NCBI RefSeq assembly: GCF_009184905.1
Contig: NZ_WESC01000004.1
Location: forward strand, 62,001-126,000
DNA from: Parvibaculum sedimenti
Lineage (GTDB): Bacteria; Pseudomonadota; Alphaproteobacteria; Parvibaculales; Parvibaculaceae
Direction: 5' to 3'
DNA: 64,000 bases
Part shown: positions 1 to 10,329 of the stretch, piece by piece
Numbering within the stretch: position 1 is the stretch's first letter
Layout: each line of letters begins with the position of its first letter
Made by a program: the position numbers and the translations under genes
Notes under the pieces: generated by a model
What the model was told of the DNA's origin: nothing
Database searches by the model: none
Seen by the model: the letters and a program-made list of their open reading frames with translations, nothing else

Positions 1-819
1 CTGGACCTTCGTCTGCTCCATGTTGATGAAGGTCGGATCGGAGAGGTCGTCGGGTACGGGAATGCCGTAGTCGCTGTCGAAATGCGAGATCGAGGCACCG
101 ACATAGCCTGAATCGAAAAGGACCGATGCACCGCCCGCCACACCTTTCGAGTCCGCCCACGTCTCGGATTGACGCGAGGTGCCACCGGGAATGCGATAAT
201 CGTCGGCGATGCGATCATAGGCATCCGCATGCCAGACGACCCGGCCGGTCGAGGCCTCCACCATGGCCGAGCCCTGACGTCCATCATCGACCGTGTCGTA
301 GCTTCCCGAAACTTCACCCGTATAGCCGCCCTCGGGAATGAAGGTCGGGATGCGCGAATTGATGACGTTGACGACGCCACCGATCGCCTCGCTGCCATAG
401 CGCAACGTCGCCGGGCCGCGCACGACTTCCACCTTCTCTGCGCTCATCGGATCAATCGGCACGCCGTGATCTTCGCTCACCGCCGAGACGCCATCGCCGC
501 CGAGTCCGTTTTCGAGGATGTGGACACGAAAATTGTCGAGGCCGCGGATGATCGGACGGCTCGCGCCAGCGGCGAAGGAGCTCTGTGCGATGCCCGGCTC
601 GTCAGCGAGGAGCGCGCCGAGTGTGGACGCGCCCTTGTTCAGGATCTCGTCCCTGCCGATCACGGTGACTTGCGTCGCCAGATCGTCGGGTGTCGAGAAG
701 ATCGGTGAGGCAGTCACCACGATCTCGTCAGCCAGCCCCGCCGTATCGGCTGCCGCAACGGGCGTTCCCATCGCTATCGAAAGCACGATGGCAGCTGCTC
801 CAAGCTCGACATAACCCAT
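1..819 (-). CDS. TonB-dependent outer-membrane receptor, N-terminal part (probable zinc receptor, ZnuD-like)
   Basis: This gene runs off the left edge, so only the first 273 codons are present. The start is ATG at 819, behind a GGGGGGTGTGG purine-rich stretch. A signal peptide ends near AVAAAD (about residues 20-28). It is followed by a TonB-box-like DEIVVTA and a plug domain with the typical segments VTVIGRDEI, GLDNFRVHILENG, DHGVPIDP and VEVVRGPATLRYG...GGVVNVI. The product would be an outer-membrane channel importing a scarce ligand with TonB-ExbBD energy. The plug wording resembles the ZnuD group, and a perfect Zur-type palindrome 22 bases upstream points to zinc. The barrel is outside the window, so ligand specificity cannot be judged from its loops. 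Confidence 0.88.
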   Translation of the reverse strand, partial: MGYVELGAAAIVLSIAMGTPVAAADTAGLADEIVVTASPIFSTPDDLATQVTVIGRDEILNKGASTLGALLADEPGIAQSSFAAGASRPIIRGLDNFRVHILENGLGGDGVSAVSEDHGVPIDPMSAEKVEVVRGPATLRYGSEAIGGVVNVINSRIPTFIPEGGYTGEVSGSYDTVDDGRQGSAMVEASTGRVVWHADAYDRIADDYRIPGGTSRQSETWADSKGVAGGASVLFDSGYVGASISHFDSDYGIPVPDDLSDPTFINMEQTKVQ

Positions 820-840
820 AACCACACCCCCCAATATGTA

Positions 841-857
841 ATGTTATAATATAACAT
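841..857. promoter_or_regulatory. Zur-type operator (17-bp perfect palindrome)
   Basis: ATGTTATAATATAACAT is a perfect odd-centred palindrome: ATGTTATA, a central A, then TATAACAT. It matches the core of the proteobacterial Zur box (GTTATA-N-TATAAC). It lies 22 bases upstream of the ATG of the minus-strand TonB receptor, where it would cover the core promoter. Zur with zinc would repress the receptor when zinc is plentiful. The match and position are seen directly; regulation by Zur is inferred. Confidence 0.8.
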
Positions 858-997
858 ATCGAGATTTGAACGAGGTGCAAGTCCCCTTCTCACCGCCCCC
901 CCTCGCGGTGCATGAACTGCGTCGTCGCACCCGGCTTCATGCGCGCGCCATTCGGCGTTAGGCTCTGCAATCAGAAACGCGCGAGCCGGGAGGCGTC

Positions 998-1804
998 ATG
1001 TCCAGCAAGAACCGCAAGAAGAACCAGGTCGCCGACGACGAAGACGACGGCAACGGCGAGTACAAGAAAGACCTCTACGAGCTCCAGGTGGAGCTTGTGA
1101 AGCTTCACAAGGACATCATCGCGAACAACCGCAAGTTCCTTGTCATCTTTGAGGGACGCGATGCCGCCGGCAAGGACGGCACGATCAAGCGCCTCACGGA
1201 ACATCTGAGCCCCCGCGAGGCGCGCATCATTGCACTTGGCAAGCCGTCGGACCGTGAAACCTCGCAATGGTATTTCCAGCGATATTCACGCTATCTCCCT
1301 GCCGCGCAGGAAATCGTGTTCTTCAACCGCAGCTGGTACAATCGCGCCGGTGTCGAACCGGTGATGGGCTATTGCTCGGAAGCCGAGCATGAACAATTCC
1401 TCAGCACAGTCTCGTCCTTCGAGGAAATGCTGATCGGTGCGGGCATCACACTCTACAAATATTATCTCGACATCACGCGCGACGAGCAGAAGAAGCGACT
1501 GGAAGACCGGCGCAAGGATCCGCTGAAACAGTGGAAGCTCTCGCCCGTCGACGATGCGGCGCTGAAGCACTGGTCGGACTATAGCAAGGCTCGCGACCTC
1601 ATGTTCGCGCGGACCCATACGCTGCACGCGCCATGGTATGTCGTCTGCGCCAACGACAAACGTGAGGCACGTCTCAACGTGATGCGCGACCTGCTCAACC
1701 GGACCACTTATGAGGGCAAGAAGCAGAAGCTGACGATTCCCGACATGAACATCGTCTTTCCCTTCGATCCCGCGCAGCTCAAATCCGACCGGATCGCGAA
1801 GTGA
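998..1804 (+). CDS. ppk2: Polyphosphate kinase 2 (PPK2 family)
   Basis: The 268-residue product catalyses phosphate transfer between polyphosphate and nucleotides, usually driving nucleoside-diphosphate phosphorylation from polyphosphate. The Walker A-like loop FEGRDAAGKDGTIKRL (about residues 50-65), the following SPREARIIALGKPSDRE and the lid/Walker B part EIVFFNRSWYNRAGVEPVMGYC are diagnostic of PPK2. The length fits a single-domain class I enzyme. The N-terminus is highly charged. A GGGAGG ribosome site lies just before the ATG. It heads a chain of four genes (ppk2, DUF4010, MFS, rlmJ) joined by stop/start overlaps. Its final TGA overlaps the next ATG. Confidence 0.93.
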   Translation: MSSKNRKKNQVADDEDDGNGEYKKDLYELQVELVKLHKDIIANNRKFLVIFEGRDAAGKDGTIKRLTEHLSPREARIIALGKPSDRETSQWYFQRYSRYLPAAQEIVFFNRSWYNRAGVEPVMGYCSEAEHEQFLSTVSSFEEMLIGAGITLYKYYLDITRDEQKKRLEDRRKDPLKQWKLSPVDDAALKHWSDYSKARDLMFARTHTLHAPWYVVCANDKREARLNVMRDLLNRTTYEGKKQKLTIPDMNIVFPFDPAQLKSDRIAK

Positions 1805-3123
1805 TGCCCACTTTCTCCTTTCCCGCGATCGACCCGGAACGCTTCGCCGTTCTCATGGCGCTCGGCTTTTTCCTCGGTCTCGCCTTCGAGGAATATTTCG
1901 CCAAGAGCCGCATCAAGCCACCGGGCGGCGTCAGAACCTTTCCCCTGCTTTCCCTCACCGGCGCACTTCTCTATGCGCTGGAGCCGGAGCATGGGCTGCT
2001 GTTTCTGGGCGGGCTCGCCATTCTGGGTACATGGCTTTCCATCTATTACCGGGAACGGCTGGCGCATCAACTCACCGAAACCGACGGAACCGACGAGGAG
2101 ACGGCGACGCGGCTCGATGCCGGCATCATGGCGCCGACGGGCAATCTTCTCGCCTTTCTTCTCGGGCCGATCGCGCTTGCCGCGCCGCTCTGGGTCGCCG
2201 TCAGCGTCGCCGTCGCCGCAGTGCTCCTCACCGGCGCGAGAGAGAGTCTGCATGCTCTCGCCGCGAAGCTCGGTGGCGAGGAACTCAGTACGCTCGGCAA
2301 ATTCCTGATCGTCATCGGCATTGTGCTGCCGCTGGTGCCGCATGAGCCGGTGACAACGCTCACCGACATCACGCCCTATGAAGTCTGGCTCGCCGTCGTC
2401 GCGGTCTCGACGCTTTCTTATGCGAGCTATCTCGTTCAACGCTTCCTCGCGCCACGCCACGGCGTTCTCATTTCGGCGGCACTGGGTGGACTCTACTCGT
2501 CGACGGCCACCACAGTCGTCCTCTCGCGCCGCGTACGGGCGAACATAGTCGCACCGGCCCGAACACAAGCCGCCATCGTGCTCGCGACTGCCATCATGTT
2601 CCTTCGCATCATCGTCGTCGTCGGCGTTTTCACCGTGCCACTTGCGCTGAAACTCCTGCCTTCGATTGCAATTCTATGTCCCGCCGGCCTGCTCATCAGC
2701 GCCTGGCTAATGTGGTCGGCGCCGAAGCCCGCCAACGAAGCAGCTGAGACAACGACCCCGACCAACCCCCTCGAACTCTCGACTGCGATCATCTTTGCCG
2801 TTCTCTTCATCGCGCTTTCGATCGCCGTCGCCTGGGCGAAAACACGCTTTGGCGAGAATGGCATCTTCGCCCTCGGTATGCTGGCGGGCTTCACCGATGT
2901 CGATCCCTTCGTGCTGAGCCTCGCGCAAGGCACGAGCCGCGCTATCAACCTCGACGTGGCAGCCTCCGCAATCCTTCTCGCCGCTTCGTCCAACAATCTG
3001 CTCAAGGCCTCCTATACACTCGCCTTCGCCGGCCGCAACAACGGGCTCAAGCCAGCGCTCGCGCTCTTTGCGCTTTCCGCAGCAGGCATCCTCGCTGCCT
3101 TCCACACTCTCGGATGGTTCTGA
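1804..3123 (+). CDS. MgtC/DUF4010 family integral membrane protein
   Basis: The 439-residue protein is almost entirely hydrophobic helices. The N-terminal helices (ALGFFLGLAFEEYFAKS, GVRTFPLLSLTGALLYAL) resemble the MgtC/SapB fold, and the rest fits DUF4010 (GGLYSSTATTVVLSRR near residue 225). The function of DUF4010 proteins is unknown; MgtC relatives modulate phosphate and magnesium homeostasis or the F-type ATP synthase in other bacteria. I chose ATG at 1804, which overlaps the ppk2 stop as TGATG; a GTG at 1801 is also possible. Coupling to ppk2 suggests, as inference, a role in phosphate or polyphosphate physiology. Confidence 0.85.
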   Translation: MPTFSFPAIDPERFAVLMALGFFLGLAFEEYFAKSRIKPPGGVRTFPLLSLTGALLYALEPEHGLLFLGGLAILGTWLSIYYRERLAHQLTETDGTDEETATRLDAGIMAPTGNLLAFLLGPIALAAPLWVAVSVAVAAVLLTGARESLHALAAKLGGEELSTLGKFLIVIGIVLPLVPHEPVTTLTDITPYEVWLAVVAVSTLSYASYLVQRFLAPRHGVLISAALGGLYSSTATTVVLSRRVRANIVAPARTQAAIVLATAIMFLRIIVVVGVFTVPLALKLLPSIAILCPAGLLISAWLMWSAPKPANEAAETTTPTNPLELSTAIIFAVLFIALSIAVAWAKTRFGENGIFALGMLAGFTDVDPFVLSLAQGTSRAINLDVAASAILLAASSNNLLKASYTLAFAGRNNGLKPALALFALSAAGILAAFHTLGWF

Positions 3124-4316
3124 TGGAGAGCTCGCCCTCCGCGAAGCCGCGCAAGATTGCGTTGCCGGCTGGCATCTGGGCGCTCGGCATCGTCAGCTTC
3201 TTCATGGACATGTCGTCCGAACTGGTTCACTCGCTGCTGCCCGTCTTTCTCGTCTCGGGGCTCGGCGCCAGCATGGTTGCGGTCGGCTTCATCGAAGGCG
3301 CCGCAGAGGCAACGGCATCCATCACCAAGGTCTTTTCGGGCGTCATCAGCGACTGGATCGGCAAGAGGAAGCTTCTCACCGTCATCGGCTATGGCCTCGC
3401 GGCACTGACAAAGCCGCTCTTTCCGCTGGCAACGACGGTCGATGCGGTTTTCGCCGCGCGTTTCATCGACCGGATCGGCAAGGGCATACGCGGCGCGCCG
3501 CGCGATGCGCTGATCGCCGACATCGTTTCGCCCGAGCAGCGCGGTGCCGCCTACGGCCTGCGACAGGCGCTCGATACGGCAGGCGCAGTCGCGGGGCCGC
3601 TGCTTGCCGTTCTCTTCATGTGGCTTCTTGCCGATAACATCAGGGCCGTCTTCTGGGTTGCGACGCTGCCCGCCATCGTCGCGGTTCTCATTCTCATCTT
3701 CGCGGTCCGCGAGCCCGAGCATCGCGACGGGAAAGCCAAGGCCCCCTTCCGCCTTGCCGATCTCCGCGAACTCGACAGGCGCTATTGGGGCATCGTCGCC
3801 GTCGCAGGCGTTCTGACGCTTGCGCGGTTCTCCGAAGGCTTTCTGGTGCTGCGCGCGCAGAACGCCGGGCTTTCCATCGGCTATGTGCCGCTCGTCATGG
3901 TGGTGATGAGCGGCATCTATACGCTGGCGGCCTATCCGGCGGGCCTCCTGGCCGACAGGCTCGACCGGCGCTCGTTGCTCGCGCTCGGCTTCGCCGTGCT
4001 CATAGCTGCCGATATCGTGCTCGCCGAAGCCTCCACGCCGCTGATCGTCTTCGCGGGCGTGGCACTCTGGGGCCTCCATATGGGCCTCACGCAGGGTCTT
4101 CTCTCGACGCTGGTGGCGGATGCCGCCCCCGCCGCGCTCCGCGGCAGCGCCTTCGGCATATTCAATCTCATCTGCGGCGGCATCCTTCTCGCCGCCAGCG
4201 CCATTGCCGGAATGCTCTGGCAAGGCTATGGACCTGCCGCGACATTTTATGTGGGCGCGATCATCACGACCGGCGGGCTCGCCGGTCTTCTCGCCGTCAG
4301 GAGCAGGTCCGCTTGA
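3123..4316 (+). CDS. MFS transporter
   Basis: This 397-residue major-facilitator protein has about twelve hydrophobic segments. The loop 2-3 signature appears as GVISDWIGKRKLLTVIGYG, and a second-half counterpart as GLLADRLDRRSLLALGFA. It starts at ATG 3123, overlapping the previous stop (TGATG); an in-frame ATG at 3114 would add three residues. The substrate cannot be told from sequence. It sits third in the ppk2 chain, so it is probably co-translated with the DUF4010 protein and followed without a gap by rlmJ. Confidence 0.88.
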   Translation: MESSPSAKPRKIALPAGIWALGIVSFFMDMSSELVHSLLPVFLVSGLGASMVAVGFIEGAAEATASITKVFSGVISDWIGKRKLLTVIGYGLAALTKPLFPLATTVDAVFAARFIDRIGKGIRGAPRDALIADIVSPEQRGAAYGLRQALDTAGAVAGPLLAVLFMWLLADNIRAVFWVATLPAIVAVLILIFAVREPEHRDGKAKAPFRLADLRELDRRYWGIVAVAGVLTLARFSEGFLVLRAQNAGLSIGYVPLVMVVMSGIYTLAAYPAGLLADRLDRRSLLALGFAVLIAADIVLAEASTPLIVFAGVALWGLHMGLTQGLLSTLVADAAPAALRGSAFGIFNLICGGILLAASAIAGMLWQGYGPAATFYVGAIITTGGLAGLLAVRSRSA

Positions 4317-5244: not shown

Positions 5245-6555
5245 ATGGACGGCGGGCCGAGCCTTGCGCGGACTGAGGAAACGGAGGCGCGCCTGGCCGC
5301 CGAAGAGGCCTATCACGCCGAGGTCGAGCGGAACCTCAGGCGCAACTATGCCGCCAATCTTGCGCATGGCCTCCTGGGGCAGACAGGTTTCCGCCTCGTC
5401 ACGGCGCCGACCTTCGTGCCGGCCTATATCTATCTTCTTTCCGGTTCCGAATTCGCCGTCGGCCTTGCGCTCGCCTCGCAATGGCTCGGCAACGCGCTCT
5501 CCTCGACGCTTGGCGCGACGCTGGTCGAGCACCGGAAGCGCGTGTTGTCGATGGGCCTGCTGGTCGGTTGGGGCATGCGCGGCGGGGTGCTGGGCCTCGC
5601 GCTCAGCGGCTATTTCCTGCCCGACCACTGGGCGCTGATTTTCGCCTGCATCTTTCTCTGCCTCTTCGGCCTCTTCAACGGCGTACAGTCGGTCATCTTC
5701 CAGCTTCTGATGGCAAAGGTGATCCCGCTTCGGCTGCGCGGTCGGCTCACCGGCTTTCGCAACTTCGCCGCAGGCCTTACCGCTGCCGGCGTCGCCTATG
5801 TCGGCGGCAAATATTTTGTCGAGGCGCATGCGCTCGGCAACGGCTATGCGACGACCTTCCTTGCCGCCTTTGCGCTGACATCCATCGGCCTCACCATGCT
5901 GATGCTGGTACGCGAACCCGACTCGCCCGAAGTGCGTCCGCGCACGAGCTTTCTGCTTCGCCTGCGCGAAATCCCGGACATTCTGCGCGAGGACCGCGAA
6001 CTATCGCGCTTCGTCATTGCATCTGGCCTCGCGGCACTTGGAACGCTCGCTGTACCTTTCTATGTGCTTTACGCGGGCAAGGCGATCGGCCTTTCCGGCA
6101 CGACACTCGGTGCGCTATCGACGGCCTTCCTCCTCTCGCAAACCGGCGCAAATCTGATCTGGGGATCGCTCGCCGACCGCATAGGCAACCGCGTCGTCTT
6201 CCTCGCCTCGGTCGGGATCTGGGCACTTTCGACCGTGGTGCTGATGGGCATGCATTCGCTCTGGCCGCTCGTCGCTGTCTTCGCGGGTCTTGGCGCAGGC
6301 CAGGCGGGCTTTCAGAACAGCACACAGAACATGATCCTCGAATTCGGCGCGCGAGAGGATCTTGCAATGCGGATCGCGATCCTGAACACGGCGACGTCCT
6401 CAATGATGGCTGTCGGGCCGCTGCTCGGCGGTCTCATCGCCGACAGTTCGTCCTTCGTCGCCGTCTTCTCAATCTCGACGCTGATGCTGAGCGCGGCCTT
6501 TGTGCTGGTGCTCTTCGCCGTCGGCGAGCCCCGGAAACGCGGCCTCTTTCACTGA
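5245..6555 (+). CDS. MFS transporter
   Basis: This 436-residue major-facilitator protein has a charged N-terminal tail of about 35 residues before the first helix (NLAHGLLGQTGFRL). Twelve hydrophobic segments can be traced, with a second-half loop GSLADRIGNRVVFLASVG near residue 310. It starts at ATG 5245 behind GGGAGGACGAGG. The substrate is unknown. Its last helix and C-terminus overlap, on the opposite strand, the 3' end of the dikinase-like gene by 87 bases, so the two share a convergent overlap with no room for a terminator. Confidence 0.87.
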   Translation: MDGGPSLARTEETEARLAAEEAYHAEVERNLRRNYAANLAHGLLGQTGFRLVTAPTFVPAYIYLLSGSEFAVGLALASQWLGNALSSTLGATLVEHRKRVLSMGLLVGWGMRGGVLGLALSGYFLPDHWALIFACIFLCLFGLFNGVQSVIFQLLMAKVIPLRLRGRLTGFRNFAAGLTAAGVAYVGGKYFVEAHALGNGYATTFLAAFALTSIGLTMLMLVREPDSPEVRPRTSFLLRLREIPDILREDRELSRFVIASGLAALGTLAVPFYVLYAGKAIGLSGTTLGALSTAFLLSQTGANLIWGSLADRIGNRVVFLASVGIWALSTVVLMGMHSLWPLVAVFAGLGAGQAGFQNSTQNMILEFGAREDLAMRIAILNTATSSMMAVGPLLGGLIADSSSFVAVFSISTLMLSAAFVLVLFAVGEPRKRGLFH

Positions 6556-8160
6556 CGTTGCGTCGGTCTCCACACGCCAGCGCGCAACTTCGGCAAGTGC
6601 CGCCTCGGGCCGTTCGCGAATAACGGACAGTGCGCCGGCAAAAATCTGCCCCGCATCTCCATCAAGCGTCAGTTCGTCGCCTTCGCAGAATTCGCGCCCG
6701 CCGATGACGCAGATGCCCTTCTCCGGCAGGATGCGCAGCGCCGAACATCCGACGAGACAGACCTTGCCGAGTTGCCGCGCCACCACCGCCGCATGCGAGG
6801 TGCGCCCTCCCGCCGCCGTGAGTACGCCTTCGGCCGCCGCAATGCCCTCGATATCGCCGGTCGAAATATCGTCGCGCACGAGAATGGCGCGTTTGCCCTC
6901 CGCCGCGAATTCCGCGGCACGCTTCGGGTCAAAGGCGATATGTCCGACGGCGGTGCCTATGCTCGCTGGCACCGCCTCCGCGAGTGGTGCGACACCGTCG
7001 CCCGCAAGGCGAAGACGCTCCAGCTTGTCGAGCGCAATGCCGTCGAGCCGCTTCAGCGCCTCGACGGGCGAGATCAAGCCCTCCTGCACCATGTCGACCG
7101 CCATACGTAGCGCCGCCCATGGCATGCGCTTGCCGTTGCGCGTCTGCAGAAGATAAAGCCTGCCATTCTCGACCGTGAATTCGAAGTCCTGCATGTCGTG
7201 AAATTCGACCTCGAGCACATCCTTCATGCGGGTGAGTTCGTCCGCGACTGCGGGAAGGCGTTGCGGCAGGCGCTCGGTGTCATGCACCGCGTGGCGACCG
7301 GAGACGACATCCTCGCCTTGCGCATTGAAAAGGAAATCGAGATAGGGCCGGTTCTCGCCCGTCGCCGGATCGCGGGTGAAGCCGACGCCAGCGCCGGAGG
7401 TCGCACCCATATTGCCGAACACCATGGCCTGCACGGTGACGGCCGTGCCCATATGCTCGTCGATGCCGTTGAGCGCCCGGTAACGCTTCGCCTTGTCGCT
7501 CATCCAGGAGCGGAAAACGGCCTCGACCGCTGCAACGAGCTGCTCCATCGGATCCTGCGGGAAGGGCTCGCCCGTCAGGGCAAGCGACAGGGATAGCGAT
7601 TCTTGCGCGATCGCGGCAAGGGCGTGGCTGTCGAGATCGCGTGTGCTCGAAAGCTGCTCCTCCGCAGCGCGTGTTTCGGCCAGCGCGTCGAAGGGCGCCG
7701 CATCCACCTCGCGCACGACTTCCGTGAAATCGCGCACAAGGCGGCGATAGCTGTCCTGAACCTGTCGCGGATTTCCGGTCATGCGCAGGAAGCCACGGGC
7801 GGTCTGGTCGGTGAGACCGATATTGAGGACGGTCTCCATCATGCCGGGCATGGAGACCGGCGCGCCGGAACGCACGGACACGAAAAGCGGGCGTCGTTCG
7901 CCGCCAAAGCGACGGCCGGTCGCGCCTTCGAGCTCATGCAGGCCACGGGCGAGAAGTTCGCGCGTTCCCTCAGGAAGCTTGCCCCGCGAGAGATAGGTGC
8001 GGCAAATGTCCGTCCCGAGCACGAAGGCTGGCGGCACATTGAGGCCGAGCCGCGCGAGACGCATGAGCCCATAGGCCTTGGACCCCATAGTCGTCGCACT
8101 TGCCGAAGCGGGCATGGGCTTCCCCGCCAGAATAAAGAAAAGATGCTTGTCGAGGGACAT
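6469..8160 (-). CDS. Pyruvate-phosphate-dikinase-like protein lacking the C-terminal pyruvate-binding barrel
   Basis: 563 residues. The N-terminal ATP-grasp half carries classic PPDK motifs: GSKAYGLMRLARLG (26-39), VRSGAPVSMPGMMETVLNIG (96-115), FGNMGATSGAGVGFTRDPATG (248-268) and LYLLQTRNGKRM (336-347). The phosphohistidine domain follows with GDIEGIAAAEGVLTAAGG then RTSHAAVVAR, placing the catalytic His at residue 456. True PPDK (about 870-900 residues) then has a PEP/pyruvate TIM barrel; here the protein ends about 60 residues after the His domain. It should still transfer phosphate from ATP and Pi to His, but the final acceptor is unclear. It starts 3 bases after the DUF47-fusion stop, so the two form an operon. 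The last about 29 residues are antisense to the MFS gene. Confidence 0.85.
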   Translation of the reverse strand: MSLDKHLFFILAGKPMPASASATTMGSKAYGLMRLARLGLNVPPAFVLGTDICRTYLSRGKLPEGTRELLARGLHELEGATGRRFGGERRPLFVSVRSGAPVSMPGMMETVLNIGLTDQTARGFLRMTGNPRQVQDSYRRLVRDFTEVVREVDAAPFDALAETRAAEEQLSSTRDLDSHALAAIAQESLSLSLALTGEPFPQDPMEQLVAAVEAVFRSWMSDKAKRYRALNGIDEHMGTAVTVQAMVFGNMGATSGAGVGFTRDPATGENRPYLDFLFNAQGEDVVSGRHAVHDTERLPQRLPAVADELTRMKDVLEVEFHDMQDFEFTVENGRLYLLQTRNGKRMPWAALRMAVDMVQEGLISPVEALKRLDGIALDKLERLRLAGDGVAPLAEAVPASIGTAVGHIAFDPKRAAEFAAEGKRAILVRDDISTGDIEGIAAAEGVLTAAGGRTSHAAVVARQLGKVCLVGCSALRILPEKGICVIGGREFCEGDELTLDGDAGQIFAGALSVIRERPEAALAEVARWRVETDATSVKEAAFPGLADGEEHQHKGRAQHQRRD

Positions 8161-8163
8161 CGT

Positions 8164-10101
8164 CTATCCGGCCATGACATCGTTGACGAGGTGATCGCGC
8201 AATTTGAGCGCCGTTCGCGACAGCGCATCCGCCGCCTCTTCGAGAAGCCGGGCCAGCGTGCCCACGAGTTGATGAACGCGGAAATCCGGCGCCTGCATCA
8301 GCAGCAGGCCGCGCGCTTCGCGCTCCACCTTGTCAGTCTCGTGTTCAATGCGGATGAGGCGATCGACCGCTTCAAGGAAATCGTCGAAATCCTCGCGCGC
8401 GCCGTCGCGGCGCACCTGCCCGGCCGCTTCGAACATCTTCACCATCTCCTGCGCGCCCTCGACAAGAAGATCGGCGAGCCGTCCAACAGGCACGAGGAGT
8501 TCCGGCGACATTTCGAACTTCGGCAGGAAGGAGGCGACAAATGCCGCTTCCTCCAGGGCGTCGGCGACGTCGTCCGCCTCATGCAGAAGATCGCTATAGA
8601 CCTCAGGCTTGTGCATGCGGCGCACCAGCGAACGGACGCGAGTGACCAGCCCGTCCGCCTCCTGCTCCCAATGCTGCGCCCGCGTGGCGGCTGCATCGAG
8701 ATTGGCGCGGCCCTCACTGAAGGCGAACAGGCCGTCGCGAAGACCAGTCGCCAACTCGAAGACCAACGCGGCGTGAGAGGAAGCGAGCGAGAGCAGGCTT
8801 TGCTGCGCGCCATGAAAGCGGCGCGCGAGTTCGGTCTTCACCTCGTCGCGAATGAAGCGTTCGGAGCGGCCCTGCAACAAGCCTTCGGTCGAGACGCGCA
8901 GGACGAATTTCAGATAGTCGAGTGCCTGCTCGGCACCCAGCGCCTCATGCAGCTTCTCGCCGTAGCGGAGTGTCTGCTGCGCAAACTCAATGGCTTCGTA
9001 AAGAAGCTGCTCGCCGCCGAGCTTGAGAAAACCGCGATGGCCGATATTCTGTTCCGCCGCCCATTTGAGAAGCCTCACGCCATCGGGCTTGCGCAGGAAT
9101 TCGCGCAGCAGCTTGCGCGTATGATTCCAGTCGATAAGGAAGACGATGCGCGAGCCGAGAAAGCCCAGATAGCGCTCGAGCGACGCCCGGTCCGGTGCAT
9201 CGTAACGGCCGAGGCAGAGATAATAGTTTTCCTTCTCGTTGACCTGTTCACCCTGGCGCGTGCGCGTGTCGTCCCAGCGGACGCCAAATGGCTTGAAGAG
9301 GCTCTGGAAGAAGGCGGCGCGCTGCACATGGATATCGGTATAGGTCAGCGTGACCGCCAATCCCTCGACATGAATGACGAGGACATGCGCATCATTCGTG
9401 CCGATGTCATTTTGAATGACGAGCCTGGCCGCAGCGCGCGTCGCCGTGGTGCCGAGCCCCGGATGGTCGAACTTGAGCGGTGCGGTCTCGTTGAGGCCCC
9501 GCATGAAGGCAGCAACGAGCGAACGGTCCGCCTCATCGATGCGCCAGACGCGGGCGCCCTCAATGCTCTCCTCCGACAATTCACCCTGAAGCGCATTGAG
9601 CGCCTTGTGAAGATCCATGACGAGAATGTGGAGACTGTCCCCCCGCGCGCGCTCGGCGGAGGTGATGGCATCCACAACGCCGGCTGGCACACGATCCCCG
9701 TCAAAGGACGGCAAGGCGGCCGAGAGCGCCGCTTCGCGCGCGGCAAAATCCTCATTGGCCGGAAGTCCCGCCAGCACCAGCGGCGAGCGCATGGCGGCGA
9801 TGCCGTCGAGCACGGCCTGACGCAAGGCCGCCGCGCCGGGAAGATAAAGCGCGCCGTCCGCTTCGCGCCGCACATCCGCGAGAGAGCGGTCGAGCGTCGC
9901 GTCGGCAAGGCCCGCCGCCCGGCGCTCGGCGGAGAGATCGGGCATGGGGCCGTCGGGCCGGTCCGCGCGGCGTTCCGCCGTCTGCATCAGGGTCAGCAGG
10001 AATTTGACGCGGTCATTGGCGGTAAGCGCCTCGGAAAGCTGATCCGGCAGGAGCAGCGCCCGCTCGCCGAGTTCATCCATCATGAGGCTTTTTACGGGCA
10101 C
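8164..10101 (-). CDS. Large protein with C-terminal PhoU-like/DUF47 helical domain and an unrecognised N-terminal region
   Basis: 645 residues if the GTG at 10101 is used; tandem ATGs at 10083 and 10080 are equally plausible. Residues about 435-640 are helical with the acidic pattern of DUF47/PhoU-like proteins: HWEQEADGLVTRVRSLV (477-493), DLLHEADDVADALEEAA (504-520) and RIEHETDKVEREARG (584-598). These carry the E..D pairs that bind metal in PhoU relatives. Such proteins often accompany phosphate transporters. Residues 1-430 match nothing I recognise; they mix helices with a beta-rich centre (VLVIHVEGLAVTLTYTDIHV, LGSRIVFLIDWNHTRKLLREF). It is the first gene of an operon with the dikinase-like gene, behind a PHO-box-like repeat, so a phosphate-starvation role is inferred. 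Confidence 0.78.
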   Translation of the reverse strand: MPVKSLMMDELGERALLLPDQLSEALTANDRVKFLLTLMQTAERRADRPDGPMPDLSAERRAAGLADATLDRSLADVRREADGALYLPGAAALRQAVLDGIAAMRSPLVLAGLPANEDFAAREAALSAALPSFDGDRVPAGVVDAITSAERARGDSLHILVMDLHKALNALQGELSEESIEGARVWRIDEADRSLVAAFMRGLNETAPLKFDHPGLGTTATRAAARLVIQNDIGTNDAHVLVIHVEGLAVTLTYTDIHVQRAAFFQSLFKPFGVRWDDTRTRQGEQVNEKENYYLCLGRYDAPDRASLERYLGFLGSRIVFLIDWNHTRKLLREFLRKPDGVRLLKWAAEQNIGHRGFLKLGGEQLLYEAIEFAQQTLRYGEKLHEALGAEQALDYLKFVLRVSTEGLLQGRSERFIRDEVKTELARRFHGAQQSLLSLASSHAALVFELATGLRDGLFAFSEGRANLDAAATRAQHWEQEADGLVTRVRSLVRRMHKPEVYSDLLHEADDVADALEEAAFVASFLPKFEMSPELLVPVGRLADLLVEGAQEMVKMFEAAGQVRRDGAREDFDDFLEAVDRLIRIEHETDKVEREARGLLLMQAPDFRVHQLVGTLARLLEEAADALSRTALKLRDHLVNDVMAG

Positions 10102-10211: not shown

Positions 10212-10229
10212 ATGACGATGCGATGACAA
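10212..10229 (-). promoter_or_regulatory. PHO-box-like direct repeat upstream of the DUF47/dikinase-like operon
   Basis: Read on the minus strand the site is TTGTCAT-CGCA-TCGTCAT: two 7-base repeats spaced 11 bases apart, as in the PhoB consensus CTGTCAT-N4-CTGTCAT (6 of 7 and 5 of 7 matches). A TCTAAT -10-like element follows at 10197-10192, and the operon start is about 110-130 bases downstream. PhoB control is inferred from spacing and from the phosphate-related domains of the genes. Confidence 0.55.
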
Positions 10230-10273
10230 AACCCCCGTCGGGGCCAAGCCATATGTCGCAGACGCACAAAGAA

Positions 10274-10301
10274 AAACCGGCGCCCTTGCGGACGCCGGTT
10301 T
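10274..10301 (-). terminator. Rho-independent terminator after the aldehyde dehydrogenase gene
   Basis: On the minus strand a 9-bp stem (AAACCGGCG / CGCCGGTTT) with a 10-base loop is followed by TTTTTCTTT. It lies about 30 bases beyond the stop of the gene ending at 10330. A smaller CCCC-GAC-GGGG hairpin with four Ts follows at about 10248-10232 and may act as a second stop before the PHO-box promoter. Confidence 0.75.
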
Positions 10302-10329
10302 CACATCTCATTCCCGAGGGAAAGAAAGA

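Follow-up and report, generated by a model that had tools for sequence, protein, structure and literature searches.

The 64,000-nucleotide stretch of Parvibaculum sedimenti analyzed here (contig NZ_WESC01000004.1, positions 62,001 to 126,000 of the forward strand; referred to below as the window) carries a two-gene module consisting of a shortened pyruvate phosphate dikinase (PPDK) and a partner protein that ends in a DUF47/PhoU-like domain (Table 1). The layout had been read from the sequence by the original prediction and was confirmed: both open reading frames (ORFs) lie on the minus strand, and the stop codon of the partner gene is separated by 3 bases (8161-8163) from the ATG of the PPDK gene downstream. 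The last 87 bases of the PPDK gene (6469-6555) overlap the end of a convergent major facilitator superfamily (MFS) gene (5245-6555). Since the PPDK of L042 (loci are given L numbers), a close relative of the window locus, stops earlier, at 538 amino acids (aa), the tail of the window protein may be dispensable. No sigma-70-type promoter was found between the aldehyde dehydrogenase gene and the partner start. A terminator-like hairpin, for which the evidence is weak, and a Pho-box-like site precede the partner gene, which suggests that the pair forms a transcription unit of its own, separate from the aldehyde dehydrogenase gene.

Table 1. Features of the dikinase-partner module, in window coordinates
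Feature	Position	Strand	Basis
Barrel-less PPDK gene, 563 aa, ATP-grasp and phosphohistidine domains	6469..8160	-	ORF list, Pfam, PPDK alignment
Phosphohistidine (swivelling) domain of the short PPDK, residues 424-504, PF00391	6649..6891	-	Pfam
His456 codon of the short PPDK, catalytic-type, GGRTSHAAVVAR	6793..6795	-	Alignment to PPDK His455; invariant in 49 rows
Partner gene, 645 aa, GTG start as listed	8164..10101	-	ORF list, Pfam, alignment, AlphaFold2
Partner N-terminal part, residues 14-332, helices and alpha/beta core, most invariant polar residues	9106..10062	-	Alignment, predicted model
Partner helix motif D155-S156-x-H158-x6-H165-K166	9604..9639	-	Resembles motif of ~200-aa partners of actinobacterial short PPDKs
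Partner PhoU-fold domain, residues 430-642, DUF47/PhoU_div	8176..8814	-	Pfam; VIA-align with 3l39
Pho-box-like site TTGTCATcgcaTCGTCAT, ending 110 bp before the partner start	10212..10229	-	11/14 core positions
Terminator-like hairpin behind the upstream aldehyde dehydrogenase gene	10273..10302	-	1 found vs 0.4 expected; weak

The short PPDK was matched in Pfam by PPDK_N and by PEP-utilizers (the mobile domain), and the model of the phosphoenolpyruvate (PEP)/pyruvate barrel found no Pfam match in its 563 aa. Residues 23-517 are collinear with positions 17-516 of the chain of a solved 874-residue PPDK (9pzl_A), with R97, E327, Q339, R341, and H456 aligned to R92, E323, Q335, R337, and H455. These five we take to be the residues of the ATP/inorganic phosphate (Pi) half-site and the catalytic-type His of PPDK. 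All five, His456 included, are invariant in 49 module PPDK rows from bacteria and archaea. The barrel-less enzyme with a collinear His456 thus stood as predicted, and because the residues for making a phosphohistidine (His~P) are conserved, the ATP/Pi half-reaction on His456, and with it formation of His~P from ATP and Pi by the short PPDK, appears likely.

Only 75 to 110 aa remain after the His motif in 39 of the 49 module rows (the other 10 were unmatched by the motif pattern), compared to 409 to 449 aa in complete motif-matched full-length PPDKs. The short PPDK scored 557.9 bits against TIGR01828, far below the cut-off of 843.45. It narrowly passed the 534-position model NF004531 ("pyruvate, phosphate dikinase"; 457.2 bits, cut-off 456); this model does not single out the short kind, since the complete PPDK of the same genome passes it too (514.6 bits). 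That complete enzyme is encoded elsewhere in an open frame of 905 aa and is 41% identical to the short PPDK. A separate gene supplying the missing barrel had been named as a finding that would undo the interpretation. In the P. sedimenti genome no such complementing gene was seen: a PF02896 search revealed the barrel only within three long open frames (797, 825, and 905 aa) and no free-standing barrel gene.

The DUF47/PhoU-like end of the partner was also borne out. Pfam placed PhoU_div/DUF47 (PF01865) at residues 442-601 (30.8 bits vs a cut-off of 24.4) and gave no match before residue 442 at an E value of ≤1. AlphaFold2, run on 50 partner sequences (the window, 48 of the 80 loci described below, and L007), produced a full model with a predicted local distance difference test (pLDDT) score of 87 and a predicted template modeling (pTM) score of 0.68; the N-terminal part alone, residues 14-424, reached 90 and 0.86. 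In the predicted model, residues 430-642 superpose on 3l39 with a Z score of 25.3 and a root mean square deviation (rmsd) of 2.4 Å over 200 residues (VIA-align), so the tail as modeled has the PhoU helical-bundle fold.

The ~410-aa N-terminal part of the partner had neither a Pfam match nor a clear structural one. Foldseek returned no match for it at an E value of ≤0.001, a search of PDB profiles with the partner-family alignment gave nothing significant, and the best VIA-align rows reached a Z score of ~8, a level that the notes of the program call common. They included helices of P-Rex1 and the C-domain of T4 MotA (Z score of 7.9, rmsd of 3.6 over 106 residues), with guanidino kinases, PcyA, and YbjN among the weak rows. 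Assignment of a fold to this part was rejected on the Foldseek and VIA-align results; weak matches to a predicted model do not make the fold a new one. The same part carries residues that are invariant in all 50 partners, namely, N29, K33, Q40, R122, D155, H158, H165, H213, Q230, N231, D232, D237, H239, D256, H258, R261, D324, N326, R329, K330, and H355. The helix motif contributes D155, H158, and H165 to this set, and its S156 is present in at least 90% of rows; several other members cluster at the ends of predicted strands (QNDIGTxDAH and TDxH). So dense a set of invariant polar residues looks like a candidate binding or catalytic site, and the original view that the pair has no obvious acceptor site is too strong.

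To establish how regularly the two genes occur together, the partner alignment was scanned against 84,980 species genomes. There were 453 pattern matches, 423 of which encode a partner relative; the locus counts given here cover the best 80 of these 423, from bacteria and archaea, with gene starts picked by script. At 77 of the 80 loci, a PPDK relative lies directly downstream on the same strand, at -17 to +153 bp from the partner stop. Two loci (L048 and L051) end at a contig edge, and in L064, from a Solemya velesiana symbiont (1-3827), both genes are broken into several open frames with PPDK pieces further downstream, as if the pair were decaying in the symbiont or the assembly were faulty. 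Contig ends truncate five of the 77 paired PPDK genes. The 72 complete ones encode 525 to 569 aa (L087, 528 aa by its full open frame), which is too short to leave room for a barrel.

When 299 genomes were sampled evenly across the phylum, 4 of them, P. sedimenti included, had the N-terminal part of the partner, and a short PPDK adjoined it in 4/4; these PPDKs scored 659 to 824 bits against the module profile, and the next score among the matches listed was 634 bits, for a 909-aa frame. Among 61 genomes of the genus, family, and class, the partner was again found in 4 (own genome included), all paired, and 57 lacked it. The co-occurrence expected by the original prediction was therefore found, and the pairing was not lost in related genomes. 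Hosts of the module are Pseudomonadota, Acidobacteriota, Planctomycetota, Gemmatimonadota, and Thermodesulfobacteriota among the bacteria and Methanoregulaceae, a further euryarchaeote, and Nitrososphaerota among the archaea. Plasmid copies were seen in Methylocella tundrae (two records) and Aquabacterium olei (one), all of them paired. Since the distribution is broad, patchy, and extends to plasmids, the data point to spread by horizontal transfer; many of the hosts are metagenome bins, whose contig assignment is as deposited. Overall, the module is conserved, its distribution is patchy, and its pairing is near-obligate and not accidental.

The original prediction knew of no described system of this composition. 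That statement did not hold: a barrel-less PPDK with an operon partner is already known through VadK (Rv1127c) of Mycobacterium tuberculosis, described in 2026. According to that report, VadK is PPDK derived, lacks the barrel, and has Rv1126c as its operon partner; His422 of VadK is autophosphorylated with ATP and Mg, enzymes of the methylcitrate cycle came down with VadK in a pulldown and VadK was proposed as a regulator of the cycle, and Rv1126c was coexpressed with VadK for solubility and separated from it by a 2 M NaCl wash (PMC13400623). A DUF47-fusion version of a split dikinase was not found in print in the open-licence PMC literature, nor were the module clade, its DUF47-fusion partner, the pairing, and the phosphate context. 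A Streptomyces study that mentions both the Pho box and PPDK treats the enzyme in relation to gluconeogenesis.

A quick, unrooted tree was built from 27 module rows (chosen from the 49), 20 rows labeled full length, and 6 actinobacterial short PPDKs. VadK itself was left out, and branches are long. The module PPDKs occupy one side of a branch with a Shimodaira-Hasegawa-like approximate likelihood ratio (SH-aLRT) support of 100, and the six actinobacterial short PPDKs group with the full-length enzymes outside the module clade. A constraint joining these six and the module in one clade was weakly rejected (approximately unbiased [AU] test, P = 0.030); the unity of the six was not (P = 0.062). 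One row labeled full length, the 822-aa L134, has no barrel match. Because the actinobacterial short PPDKs lie outside the module clade, the barrel was probably lost at least twice, a provisional reading given the long branches.

Loss of the barrel, together with a full PPDK in the same genome and one locus of the 80 that is actually broken (L064), might indicate that the short enzyme is a PPDK that has decayed or become redundant and persists beside a DUF47 gene by chance. Decay sits poorly with half-site residues that are invariant across 49 bacterial and archaeal rows and with a single clade in which pairing is near-obligate. Invariance and pairing led us to rule out both chance association and a decayed pseudogene, and we regard this explanation as extremely improbable.

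The original prediction had also proposed a phosphate-responsive device, and we looked for such a link in the upstream regions. The Pho box has the consensus CTGTCAT, 4 bases, CTGTCAT. Both strands of the 250 bp before the partner were searched in 78 regions, 77 from the loci and one from the window. Eleven regions contained a site reaching 11/14 positions, and 6 reached 12/14; the window site is among the 11, and its near relative L042 has the same site. When the same half-sites were searched with altered spacings (8-10 and 12-14), there were 1 to 5 sites at 11/14 and 0 at 12/14, and scrambled half-sites (60 draws) yielded a mean of 1.4 (maximum of 5) and 0.08 (maximum of 1), respectively. 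Upstream regions of 169 neighboring ORFs held 1 site at 11/14 and 0 at 12/14, and the 60 regions taken from before full-length PPDK genes held none at either level (Fisher P values of 1.7e-5 and 0.0024). Further loci (L230-L233) had 1 site at 11/14, and L234, on the same contig as L043, had no Pho-box-like site.

Neighboring genes were tallied by Pfam among 111 upstream ORFs, at most 2 per locus, which were picked by length and by G+C content at third codon positions (GC3) and may include spurious ones; the tallies list the 25 commonest of 107 and 136 families. Upstream, Ppx-GppA was seen 5 to 6 times, an ATP-binding cassette (ABC) ATPase and a permease 4 times each, and CHAD 3 times. Downstream, 2 of 99 ORFs was the most that any family reached. 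A search with fixed queries and thresholds located PstB, Ppx, or CHAD genes at 14 of the 86 module loci (1.04 Mb; PstB at 8, Ppx at 5, CHAD at 4) and at none of the 60 control loci, which surround full-length PPDK genes (0.81 Mb), an enrichment (P = 0.0004; 11/83 and P = 0.0026 when duplicates were merged among hits only) that is to be read with queries taken from module loci and controls from Pseudomonadota only. Genes of L118, L095, L058, and L106 passed TIGR00972 (PstB), and that of L072 narrowly missed it. In L108 and L066, both from Geobacteraceae, and in L083 (Methanolinea), a CHAD gene and then a Ppx gene immediately precede the pair; in L054 a PhoX-like gene lies upstream of it. A link of the module to phosphate thus gains independent support, for part of the family.

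CHAD is a polyphosphate-binding domain, and Accumulibacter is a genus of polyphosphate accumulators. The Ppx and CHAD neighbors, absent from all 60 controls, and the presence of the module in four Accumulibacter metagenome-assembled genomes would suit a special case of a split dikinase in which polyphosphate is acceptor or donor, with ATP spent on chain elongation or, in reverse, ATP formed from AMP, pyrophosphate (PPi), and polyphosphate. Such neighbors were confined to a minority of loci (6/86) from a handful of lineages (two Geobacteraceae, one Thiobacillus, one unclassified proteobacterium, one Methanolinea, and one Methanoregulaceae with CHAD only). We consider a dedicated polyphosphate enzyme unlikely.

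The Pho/Pst gene context can also be read as that of a VadK-like regulatory histidine kinase device with no metabolic product. His~P would report levels of ATP, Pi, AMP, or PPi and would bind or phosphorylate the partner (e.g., at H158 or H165), which would then control phosphate uptake or the Pho signal through its PhoU-like domain. VadK provides a precedent (PMC13400623), the partner as modeled has a PhoU-fold domain, and its helix motif holds two invariant His residues possibly common to VadK-type partners. However, the invariant polar residues of the partner far exceed what a docking surface needs, loci with Ppx and CHAD and no Pst nearby suggest metabolism rather than control of Pst, and the VadK-like sequences fall outside the module clade. 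We regard a purely regulatory role as possible and lean against it.

The reading that we prefer, with a probability of about one-half, is that the two proteins are the subunits of a "split" dikinase belonging to the phosphate-starvation response, with the partner replacing the barrel. It builds on direct observations: the gene structure, the conserved half-site, the near-obligate pairing, the single clade, the PhoU fold of the predicted model, and the enrichment of Pho boxes and of Pi/polyphosphate genes. The short PPDK would run the first PPDK half-reaction, ATP + Pi + His456 to His456~P + AMP + PPi, reversibly. Its swivelling His domain would then dock on the N-terminal part of the partner in place of the missing barrel, and the phosphoryl group would be exchanged between His456 and an acceptor held there; as that acceptor, pyruvate is less likely than a small molecule or a chain of phosphate/polyphosphate. 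The PhoU-fold tail may tune the reaction to the phosphate or metal state or may anchor the pair to the phosphate machinery. From the data above we infer autophosphorylation (seen in VadK), docking on the partner, the acceptor, and the net direction of flux. Phenylphosphate synthase provides a precedent for a dikinase that has several subunits and an acceptor other than pyruvate (PMC7500099).

Several observations weigh against this split-dikinase reading. Most upstream regions (67/78) fall below the Pho-box threshold, and 6 of the 11 sites found are opposite to the gene strand, with 5 in gene orientation. PstB, Ppx, and CHAD genes are missing near 72 of the 86 loci, and ribonucleotide reductase is as frequent upstream (5/111 ORFs) as Ppx. 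The putative acceptor site of the partner is read from conservation, in a part of the protein with no assigned fold. Since boxes and neighbors are each lacking at most loci, the module may be tied to phosphate in only part of the family.

Short PPDKs also occur near or beside a protein of ~200 aa on plasmids of Mycobacterium branderi, Mycobacterium avium, several members of Rhodococcus, Streptomyces atratus, Diaphorobacter, and Novosphingobium. We collected 23 plasmid records with the ~200-aa partner and aligned 16. In the fetched stretches of these 16, a neighbor matching the N-terminal half of PPDK scored >250 bits in 12, was weak in 2, and was absent in 2; 11 of the 12 strong neighbors are short by length, and the other is L134, 822 aa without a barrel match. 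In a Rhodococcus opacus record (L123), no ~200-aa protein adjoins the short PPDK, and the nearest copy is ~9 kb away. Members of this family (L122:7563-8165, L236:2501-3106, L238:2474-3094, L242:2363-2971, L245:2501-3106, and others), which accompany barrel-less PPDKs on actinobacterial and some proteobacterial plasmids, are annotated as MarR, transcriptional regulator, or hypothetical. Their start weakly resembles a winged helix (E value of 0.0007 for the best PDB profile match). Gene order and the mycobacterial plasmid copies lead us to infer that Rv1126c belongs to this family.

The family has invariant columns at F84, N88, Q99, S171, H173, W176, H180, and G188, and its S-x-H-x6-H helix coincides with S156-x-H158-x6-H165 of the module partner. 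Profile comparison of the two partner types gave P values of 0.0012 to 0.0038, a match reached by 0/300 column shuffles and 10/300 block shuffles; because block shuffles reach it, the match rests mostly on motif blocks. Sub-profiles of two helices were individually supported (0/100 shuffles each). The first helix, alike by eye (N29/K33/Q40 vs N88/K92/Q99), was equaled in 13/100 shuffles and had its best match elsewhere, and sub-profiles of the beta core (65/100) and tail (46/100) gave nothing. A search of six module genomes with the ~200-aa family alignment returned no match, and sequence search alone thus does not join the two partner types. Full homology between them was not established, support being confined to the two helices. 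The evidence for a common SxHx6H helix is moderate, and the helix is possibly a docking or acceptor element.

The plasmid loci look like a wider set of split dikinases. Several carry a further PEP-utilizing enzyme in which Pfam found only the phosphohistidine domain. On a plasmid of R. opacus B4 (L243:686-3067), the ~200-aa partner is fused to the C terminus of a PEP-utilizing enzyme, with genes of the tyrosine-phosphatase, phosphotransferase, and ecdysteroid 22-kinase families as neighbors. The PPDK of a Paraburkholderia plasmid (L134:4001-6466) continues for ~330 residues after the phosphohistidine domain with no Pfam match to the barrel or any other family; these residues are possibly a fused acceptor domain. 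On two Rhodococcus plasmids (L135:3324-9410 and L242:2363-5468), a barrel-less PPDK and a ~200-aa partner share one gene run with AMP-binding, biotin/lipoyl, and biotin carboxylase genes, joined in L135 by a carboxyltransferase gene, a set that resembles a phosphorylation-dependent carboxylation pathway.

A more sweeping proposal, which we find doubtful and advance tentatively, is that barrel-less PPDKs, VadK included, belong to a broad class of split dikinases, with a dedicated partner that bears the SxHx6H helix in place of the barrel. The DUF47-fusion branch would then be an ATP/Pi-dependent phosphotransferase under Pho control, with polyphosphate or a small molecule as its new acceptor, and would have spread among bacteria and archaea by transfer. 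If this were true, Rv1126c, the "solubility helper" of VadK, would be the missing functional half. The data suggest that loss of the pyruvate half of PPDK is not peculiar to mycobacteria and that a second, probably separate lineage exists, tied to a PhoU-fold partner in Pseudomonadota, Acidobacteriota, Planctomycetota, Gemmatimonadota, Thermodesulfobacteriota, and two archaeal groups. The module makes concrete the question of what takes the phosphoryl group instead of pyruvate, and whether it serves phosphate storage or sensing, and it marks the partner as the place to look for the mechanism of VadK.

Among known systems, the short enzyme resembles canonical PPDK (PpdK; TIGR01828; NF004531/PRK05878) in its collinear ATP-grasp and phosphohistidine domains, catalytic-type His, and Pi/ATP residues and differs in lacking the PEP/pyruvate barrel in the same chain. 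DUF47/Pit accessory and PhoU proteins (PF01865; 3l39 and 1t72) share the predicted C-terminal PhoU fold of the partner, which adds ~410 N-terminal residues of unassigned fold and pairs with a dikinase. In phenylphosphate/phenylphosphoamidate synthase, dikinase chemistry is likewise distributed over separate subunits, two of them dikinase-like and one bearing the phosphorylated His, and serves a non-pyruvate acceptor of the kind proposed here (PMC7500099); in the module, the ATP-grasp and His domains are on one 563-aa chain and the partner has no dikinase domain. With VadK the module PPDK shares ATP-grasp and phosphohistidine domains, the absence of a barrel, and an operon partner. Unlike VadK, whose partner type is ~200 aa and whose context is the methylcitrate cycle, it has a ~645-aa DUF47 fusion as its partner and a probable phosphate context, and it belongs to a clade of its own, apart from the six actinobacterial short PPDKs (Rv1127c being outside the tree).

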